DNA from: a virus
Length of the DNA: 24,383 nucleotides
Reading direction: 5' to 3' (one strand)
IMG/VR virus record: IMGVR_UViG_3300001460_000198
Location: 1 to 24,383 of that record
The notes beneath the pieces were generated by a model that saw only the letters and a program-made list of their open reading frames with translations, searched no databases and had not been told where the DNA came from. This document shows, piece after piece, positions 1,810 through 21,577 of the stretch. Every line of letters begins with the position of its first letter. Position 1 is the first letter of the stretch. A program made the position numbers and the translations under genes.

Positions 1810-2001
1810 ATGACTCAAGAAGAAAAAGATTACCAAAAATCCGAATTAGTATCTGATTTATTAGCCACTACTACAGTAATGGAAGAAATTTGGTATTACC
1901 ACCCAGAAAACCCTAATAAAAAAGATATTATTAAAGAATACAATACACTTAAACAAATTCAATCTGATATCGAAAAAGAATTAGCAGAGTTAGATAAATA
2001 G
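1810..2001 (+). CDS. Small helical hypothetical protein, 63 residues
   Basis: The product is rich in Glu and Lys. It has two likely helices, one near residues 3-28 and one near 38-63, joined by a short aromatic Pro/Asn loop (WYYHPENPNKKD). The C-terminal helix has heptad-like hydrophobic spacing (IKEYNTLKQIQSDIEKELAEL), so a helical hairpin or coiled-coil dimer is plausible. It sits between another small protein and the nuclease gene. The final G of the neighbouring hairpin's first base pair starts at its stop codon. Nothing in the sequence reveals its partner or role. Confidence 0.65.
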   Translation: MTQEEKDYQKSELVSDLLATTTVMEEIWYYHPENPNKKDIIKEYNTLKQIQSDIEKELAELDK

Positions 2002-2032
2002 TACATATTTATAACCAAACGTTATTATGTAC
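2001..2032 (+). promoter_or_regulatory. Hairpin enclosing promoter motif and nuclease start codon
   Basis: GTACATA (2001-2007) pairs perfectly with TATGTAC (2026-2032). Inside it, ATAAC (2011-2015) pairs with GTTAT (2021-2025) around a CAAAC loop, with TTT (2008-2010) bulged. The twelve pairs put the nuclease ATG (2027-2029) in the 3' arm. The ATATTTATAA motif forms most of the 5' arm. RNA reading through from upstream could fold and hide the start. RNA starting from the motif itself would lack the 5' arm and leave it free. The pairing is visible; the regulatory role is inferred. Confidence 0.55.
2005..2014 (+). promoter_or_regulatory. ATATTTATAA element, putative late promoter
   Basis: ATATTTATAA ends 12 nt before the ATG of the nuclease gene. 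Near-identical elements lie before four other gene starts or blocks in the window, three of these elements with the same 12-nt spacing counting this one. No shared -35 sequence is seen. Read on the - strand it contains TATAAATA, so its direction needs an experiment. Confidence 0.5.
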
Positions 2033-4157: not shown

Positions 4158-4862
4158 ATGGTAAGAAAAAGGAGAAAAAAGAGTAAAAACTACTTTACTC
4201 AGGAGACAGAGGACTATATTGTAAAATACAATAATGAACCTGATCCTGAAATAAGAAGTAAAGTATATGAAACTCATATTCATTATCCTTTTTTTAAACT
4301 TACACAAAATATAATTCATACATTTAAATTTTACCATACTGAAGTTGAAAATCTAGAACATCTTCAACATGAGATAATTACATTTTTATTGTCAAAAATG
4401 CATTTATTTGATCCTACAAGAGGAGCTAAGGCATATTCATATTTTGGTACTATAGTTAAACGTTGGTTAATTTTATATAATACTAAAAATTATAAAAAGA
4501 AAATCAAGAAAGTTGGGGTTGAAGTATTAACTGGAGAAAATTCAAGCCATGTTTATAATCAAGGTGATGATAAAGTTAAAAGTGATTTAGATAAATATGT
4601 TGATTTATTTGTAGCACATACCAGTGAAAATATATTAGAATTATTTCCTAAAAAAAATGATGCTCAAATAGCAGATGCCATTTTAGAATTATTTAGAAAA
4701 AGAGAATCACTAGAAGTTTTTAATAAAAAAGCGTTATATATCTACATTAGAGAAATGGTAGATGTAAAAACACCCAAAATTACTAAAATAGCGGATAAAC
4801 TTCATGATATATTTAAATCACAATATATATTCTATTTAGAAAACGGTTACGCTAGATTCTAA
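4158..4862 (+). CDS. 55: gp55-like late-transcription sigma factor
   Basis: The 234-residue protein has a basic N-terminus and a region-2-like sigma core. NLEHLQHEIITFLLSK (65-80), then HLFDPTRGAKAYSYFGTIVK (82-101) and RWLI match the E/D-rich helix and 'FDP-RG-FSY' block by which sigma factors bind the polymerase clamp and melt the -10 box. A Lys-rich stretch (YKKKIKKVG, 112-120) follows. There is no recognisable region 4, as in T4 gp55, which reads a -10-only late promoter and depends on the sliding clamp. Position just ahead of the structural genes and the repeated ATATTTATAA elements fits control of late genes. The remaining C-terminal half is helical and unassigned. The gp55 equivalence is by motif and context, not alignment. 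Confidence 0.8.
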   Translation: MVRKRRKKSKNYFTQETEDYIVKYNNEPDPEIRSKVYETHIHYPFFKLTQNIIHTFKFYHTEVENLEHLQHEIITFLLSKMHLFDPTRGAKAYSYFGTIVKRWLILYNTKNYKKKIKKVGVEVLTGENSSHVYNQGDDKVKSDLDKYVDLFVAHTSENILELFPKKNDAQIADAILELFRKRESLEVFNKKALYIYIREMVDVKTPKITKIADKLHDIFKSQYIFYLENGYARF

Positions 4863-4877
4863 TTTTTTTCTATATCC

Positions 4878-4887
4878 ATATTTATAA
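4878..4887 (+). promoter_or_regulatory. ATATTTATAA element, putative late promoter
   Basis: The element lies in the 37-base gap after the sigma gene and ends 12 nt before the ATG at 4900, the same spacing as at the nuclease gene. It would drive the spike/hub block. A weak ATAAT/ATTAT pairing (4884-4888 with 4897-4901) touches the start codon but is too AT-rich to weigh much. Confidence 0.5.
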
Positions 4888-8089: not shown

Positions 8090-8099
8090 ATATTTATAA
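8090..8099 (+). promoter_or_regulatory. ATATTTATAA element, putative late promoter
   Basis: The element lies in the 28-base gap before the baseplate wedge block and ends 14 nt before the ATG at 8114. It is followed by AATAAATCAATGTAAT, which holds a start-stop ATGTAA immediately upstream of the real start. It would transcribe the 113-residue protein, gp25, gp6 and beyond. Confidence 0.5.
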
Positions 8100-21536: not shown

Positions 21537-21546
21537 ATATTTATAA
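21537..21546 (+). promoter_or_regulatory. ATATTTATAA element, upstream copy
   Basis: First of two close copies in the 55-base gap after the giant gene. It ends 31 nt before the ATG at 21578. The second copy lies 19 bases further on. Having two may mean a strong or double start for the abundant structural proteins downstream. Confidence 0.4.
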
Positions 21547-21555
21547 CATATAACA

Positions 21556-21565
21556 ATATTTATAT
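21556..21565 (+). promoter_or_regulatory. ATATTTATAT element, downstream copy
   Basis: This copy differs only in the last base and ends 12 nt before the ATG at 21578, the same spacing as at the nuclease and spike blocks. AAAAAACACAAA lies between, with no Shine-Dalgarno. Confidence 0.45.
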
Positions 21566-21577
21566 AAAAAACACAAA

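Follow-up and report, generated by a model that had tools for sequence, protein, structure and literature searches.

The window analysed here comprises 24,383 nucleotides of viral DNA, positions 1 to 24,383 of the IMG/VR record IMGVR_UViG_3300001460_000198, and all of the genes and promoter motifs described in it lie on the + strand. Near its beginning an early-type promoter motif (CTTGG ... TTCGTATATTTA, 152–183), recognised by motif counts, heads a unit that opens with a gene for a DUF932 protein (218–1027; Pfam DUF932, E = 3e-31) and runs into a gene for a 114-amino acid SNase-like nuclease (2027–2371). The label of nuclease, given to this gene in a preliminary description made from the DNA letters, is borne out by matches to Pfam PF00565 (SNase; 44.6 bits against a cut-off of 21, E = 2.2e-11) and to a PHROG endonuclease family (E = 5.5e-40). 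Directly upstream of the SNase gene lies an ORF of 63 amino acids (1810–2001), which is kept in most relatives and has a phage bS21 gene in its place in others (directly upstream of SNase in L013, L023–L026, L030 and L031; Pfam E of about 1e-13 in the two tested); bS21 helps to hide the anti-Shine-Dalgarno sequence in Bacteroidota ribosomes. A tRNA-Leu(taa) separates the upstream ORF from the SNase promoter in L009 (6145–6230) and L010 (243–328). Between two genes at 2794–2927 of the window, and at approximately 94560–94692 of the relative G001, there is a conserved noncoding stretch of 134 nt (CGTACCTTAGGATTACAGGTTTGT ... ACACCCTGTTAATCAATAAA) with no Rfam match and a fold z of −1.2.

Further down the SNase unit, the gene at 4158–4862 is a candidate for a gp55-like late sigma factor, on the strength of weak matches. 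Its identity was examined by Pfam, by PDB sequence search and by structure: there was no Pfam match to its product, hhalign against T4-type gp55 gave a weak, colinear match (E = 0.027, probability 1.8%) and Foldseek, run on a low-confidence model, returned sigma factors as its best matches with E of at least 0.15. This gene may encode the sigma that matches the late-type promoter motif described below.

No Shine-Dalgarno sequence is recognisable at the SNase start, which is instead occupied by a hairpin. The 12-pair stem of the preliminary description is reproduced by our folding, in which GTACATA (2001–2007) pairs with TATGTAC (2026–2032) and ATAAC (2011–2015) with GTTAT (2021–2025), the start codon (2027–2029) lies in the 3' arm and the element ATATTTATAA (2005–2014) lies inside the 5' arm, all as originally proposed. 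The stem is interrupted by a 3-nt bulge, TTT (2008–2010), and closed by a 5-nt loop, CAAAC (2016–2020), which is the expected start region of late transcripts if the geometry of T4 late promoters applies; of the bases of ATATTTATAA, the first three and last four are paired and TTT is bulged. The stem is, moreover, longer than was first described. Six more pairs, joining 1994–1999 to 2033–2038, are drawn from the last bases of the upstream ORF and from SNase codons 3–4, and bring the total to 18 pairs over 1994–2038, with a 5' arm of 1994–1999, 2001–2007 and 2011–2015 and a 3' arm within 2021–2038. The stop codon of the upstream ORF (TAG, 1999–2001) falls at the base of the inner 12-bp stem. 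Folding of 1990–2050 gives −11.1 kcal/mol (z = −3.5; 1 of 200 shuffles equally good), and in the wider segment 1950–2080, proposed at the outset for comparison with shuffled sequence, the local hairpin stays in the minimum-energy fold (−21.3 kcal/mol, z = −3.1, 2 of 200). An Rfam search of the window returned no match.

The element within the 5' arm belongs to a class of sites that recurs through the window and its relatives. There are four copies of ATATTTATAA in the window, each 22–41 nt ahead of an ATG; besides the SNase copy, late-type motifs precede a 118-amino acid gene (4878–4887), a gene that lies 5' of the one for baseplate gp25 (8090–8099) and a 221-amino acid gene of the structural region, where two stand in tandem approximately 20 nt apart (21537–21566) and are kept in relatives. 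Strand counts over twelve contigs of relatives show a strong bias, and in G001 (119 kb), for example, the motif is distributed 22–23:0 and its reversed pattern 1:1, 17 of the 23 sites beginning in the intergenic 5% of the sequence. The genes behind the motif include the tail sheath gene (Pfam) and others in structural regions, and the metabolic and replication region of G001 (44–75 kb) is nearly devoid of it. The Flavobacterium phage immuto shares the motif, at 8:0 by strand and with one site at its sheath gene. We therefore predict, from the strand bias, the intergenic positions, the structural genes and the immuto sites, that ATATTTATAA is very likely the late promoter of this phage group. 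Because TATTTATA is the reverse complement of TATAAATA, the sites might also be taken for T4 promoters pointing leftward; this was ruled out, since nearly every site stands 5' of a gene and on its coding strand.

The motif at the head of the unit has the general form TTTGG...TTCGTATATTTA, with the pattern ATTTGGcTACCcagg...TTCGTATATT[TC]A. In 13 contigs it was found at 45 sites on one strand and at none on the opposite one, and nearly all of these sites are intergenic, most of them 18–65 nt ahead of non-structural genes. It resembles the −33/−7 consensus of the Bacteroidetes, TTTG/TANNTTTG (PMC6847099). Its timing is inferred to be early, the early and late labels used here resting on gene content and motif resemblance. 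In all ten contigs having enough upstream sequence, an early-type motif lies 1.6–2.5 kb upstream of SNase and neither a terminator nor a late motif was detected between the two, so that read-through of the SNase gene is to be expected. Such read-through is the condition under which a block by the hairpin would be useful.

Since some bases of the hairpin arms also belong to the promoter and the start codon, both of which are fixed, plain shuffles mislead, and this is also the root of the most durable of the alternatives that we have considered: that an AT-rich promoter set beside codons of the form ATG-TAY-AT is inevitably in part complementary to them, the hairpin being a by-product from which no regulation follows. 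The promoter and the ATG with its Tyr codon 2 do partly pin both arms. Our null therefore kept the motif and the coding bases as they are and randomised just the spacer and the 12 nt upstream; under it the SNase start of the window still stands out (p = 0.0007). Among 25 distinct SNase starts, 64% exceed 95% of their own shuffles in sequestration (p < 0.05). Late promoters bearing the same motif elsewhere do not show the hairpin: the same shuffle applied to 47 of them gives 4%, the level of chance, and a promoter within a hairpin was accordingly rejected as a general property of late promoters in this group. For eleven lineage representatives, which are not fully independent of each other, the combined p is 1.5e-9 by shuffling and 1.7e-7 in a chimera control that places 71 contexts of other late promoters, from the same phages, before the same coding start. 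The helix over the SNase start in read-through RNA thus exceeds chance, and it is conserved in most, though not all, relatives.

A second hairpin, at the start of the 118-amino acid gene (4900; CCAT/ATGG), had appeared promising as the sequence TATATCC, directly 5' of the late motif of that gene (4871–4877 in the window), is widely kept in relatives. None of 40 distinct sequences beat shuffling, however, and for that reason it is not claimed; TATATCC is conserved there without a significant hairpin.

The predicted consequence of the fold can be expressed as the cost of opening the start codon. In the window this amounts to 5.8 kcal/mol for read-through RNA, represented by 40 nt or more of upstream sequence, and falls to 0.1–0.5 kcal/mol with leaders of 6–12 nt, where the late RNAs are assumed transcripts with an assumed start site in the loop. 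The same calculation on T4 gene e, used as a positive control, moves in the same direction, with 2.2–3.0 kcal/mol for read-through RNA against 0.6–1.1 kcal/mol. With 200 nt of context, the SNase start is the costliest to open among the 21 gene starts of the window. The median over the 25 distinct SNase relatives is 4.8 kcal/mol, as against 1.0 kcal/mol for the 47 other late-promoter starts, and in a 200-nt context the relatives show medians of approximately 4.0 kcal/mol for read-through and 1.6 kcal/mol for late RNA. In L008/G001 the hairpin is outcompeted by another fold at 200 nt of context, and the SNase start ranks 51st of 141.

Conservation bears on both the preferred reading and the by-product alternative. 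The promoter sequence ATAT[TG]TATAA is kept 21–24 nt before the SNase start codon in 32 of 33 relatives, the remaining one having ATATTTATCA. The hairpin itself occurs in two architectures, a bulged GTACATA/TATGTAC stem in one set of relatives and a near-continuous AATATGTATAATC/GATTATGTATATT stem, in which the 5' arm is rebuilt, in another, and the start codon lies within the stem in both. These architectures interleave on the SNase tree, requiring 3–4 changes of label (at least three), and the fold has therefore persisted while its sequence turned over. At the free bases 2001–2004 and 2015/2021, changes mostly preserve pairing. The hairpin is kept in most relatives, partly with other pairs, and of the compensatory changes asked for in the preliminary description, strict covariation is weakly present. 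Double changes occur at two pairs in one clade, where they do not exceed shuffles, and at one pair in the other; the covarying pairs, 2001–2032 and 2015–2021 (G-C/A-U and C-G/U-A), are statistically not strong. We attribute this weakness to the pinning of the arms by the promoter, the start codon and codon 2; weak covariation also speaks for the by-product alternative. That alternative draws further support from four lineages (L027/L028, L017, L013 and L025) without a significant hairpin in these tests, and from SNase homologues lacking the promoter (L032–L038, a separate clade), among which MYxY starts occur. It is nevertheless unlikely, being rejected even by nulls that hold promoter and coding bases fixed and being at odds with the absence of the hairpin from other late promoters, the pair-preserving changes and the rebuilt 5' arm.

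The best explanation of the SNase start, and probably the correct one, is a timing switch consisting of a promoter placed within a hairpin, as predicted from sequence and folding. Early in infection, transcripts from 152–183 would cross the SNase gene carrying the full 1994–2038 sequence, which by folding forms a stem that buries the AUG, and translation would be blocked. At a later stage the promoter ATATTTATAA, which coincides at the DNA level with part of the 5' arm, would start RNA in the loop (at approximately 2018–2020), giving late RNAs with a leader of 7–9 nt that would stay unfolded because the 5' arm is absent from them, leaving the AUG open for translation. The likely purpose would be to keep an enzyme that degrades DNA and RNA off until late infection. 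The phage group probably infects marine Flavobacteria-like bacteria, and as the SNase gene lacks a recognisable Shine-Dalgarno sequence, a signal of which its likely hosts, Bacteroidota, make no use, it is the start codon itself that would be masked. Initiation in Flavobacterium proceeds without Shine-Dalgarno use, and RNA structure around the start codon modulates it (PMC6847099, PMC9976891); masking of the AUG would for this reason be effective in silencing.

One point against the switch is that part of the 5' arm would lie under ribosomes as they finish the upstream ORF at 1999–2001. An alternative is translational coupling, whereby such ribosomes melt the 5' arm and pass to the SNase start; the yield of SNase from read-through RNA would then be proportional to that of its upstream neighbour, and the promoter would add a late supply. 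This reading would suit the stop-to-start gap, which is 20–27 nt long in almost every relative, and the position of the stop at the foot of the inner stem; the gap is, however, already accounted for by the fixed distance from promoter to ATG, and L009 and L010, with their intervening tRNA gene, still allow a similar hairpin, although their minimum-energy fold is a different one. Furthermore, T4 gene e begins 37 nt after the end of nudE, yet it is silenced approximately 100-fold in read-through RNA (PMC3014915). We regard coupling as distinctly improbable. Least credible of all is an element for RNA processing or stability, for instance one cut by a double-strand-specific RNase, in place of a translation block: the position of an 18-bp stem where two genes meet might invite it, but the stem is short, bulged and AT-rich, lacks a U-run and an Rfam match, and includes the start codon in both architectures.

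The timing switch that we favour has well-studied counterparts. The T4 genes e (lysozyme), soc and 49 (endonuclease VII) are late genes within early-transcribed regions, in which a hairpin in the long RNA hides the start region and a late promoter in the 5' arm yields a late RNA unable to form it (PMC3014915). The SNase gene shares with them the embedded late-type gene, the hairpin at the start and the promoter in the 5' arm, which are known here from sequence and folding and were proven in T4 by experiment. The details differ: T4 gene e hides both a Shine-Dalgarno sequence and the AUG and uses TATAAATA, whereas the window has no Shine-Dalgarno sequence, a hidden AUG and the motif ATAT[TG]TATAA[TC], and the gene is an SNase homologue. 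Nuclease genes with a long-RNA hairpin over the ribosome-binding site and a promoter that makes a later, hairpin-free RNA are known in T4 I-TevI, I-TevII, I-TevIII and segB and in Aeh1 mobE, the late promoter being demonstrated for I-TevI and the arrangement being similar in the others (PMC2988022). Those are mobile homing endonucleases, whereas the SNase homologue is conserved, in a stable gene neighbourhood and with no intron. The proposal that T4-type logic governs this gene is therefore supported in silico, by the late-type motif, the early-type unit, the above-chance hairpin and the open AUG in the assumed late RNA, and in most relatives.

That the phage lies in a different group from T4, as was also suggested, agrees with its nearest named relative, Flavobacterium phage vB_FspM_immuto (Immutovirus), with 52% identity in the sheath and 48% in the sigma-like protein. 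No SNase gene was found next to the shared sigma-like gene of immuto, nor any immuto protein among the SNase matches listed. Whether T4-like phages of Bacteroidota have evolved, independently of T4, a Shine-Dalgarno-free switch that masks the start codon, with arms made of the late promoter and the first codons and with a structure rebuilt several times in one gene while its function was kept, is in our judgement evenly balanced.

Late-gene silencing inside early messages has its textbook example in T4, and to find support for it in a distant group of phages, mostly uncultured and with another class of promoter, suggests that this logic arises wherever early units embed late genes. In bacteria whose initiation does without Shine-Dalgarno pairing, the SNase hairpin is also a clean case on which to test masking of the start codon, and the analysis yields late-type and early-type promoter motifs for a group of marine phages. 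In two of the relatives, L002 and L005, SNase codons 2–5 (MYIYK) themselves contain a late-type motif, ATATTTATAA or ATATCTATAA, so that two motifs stand in tandem across the start.
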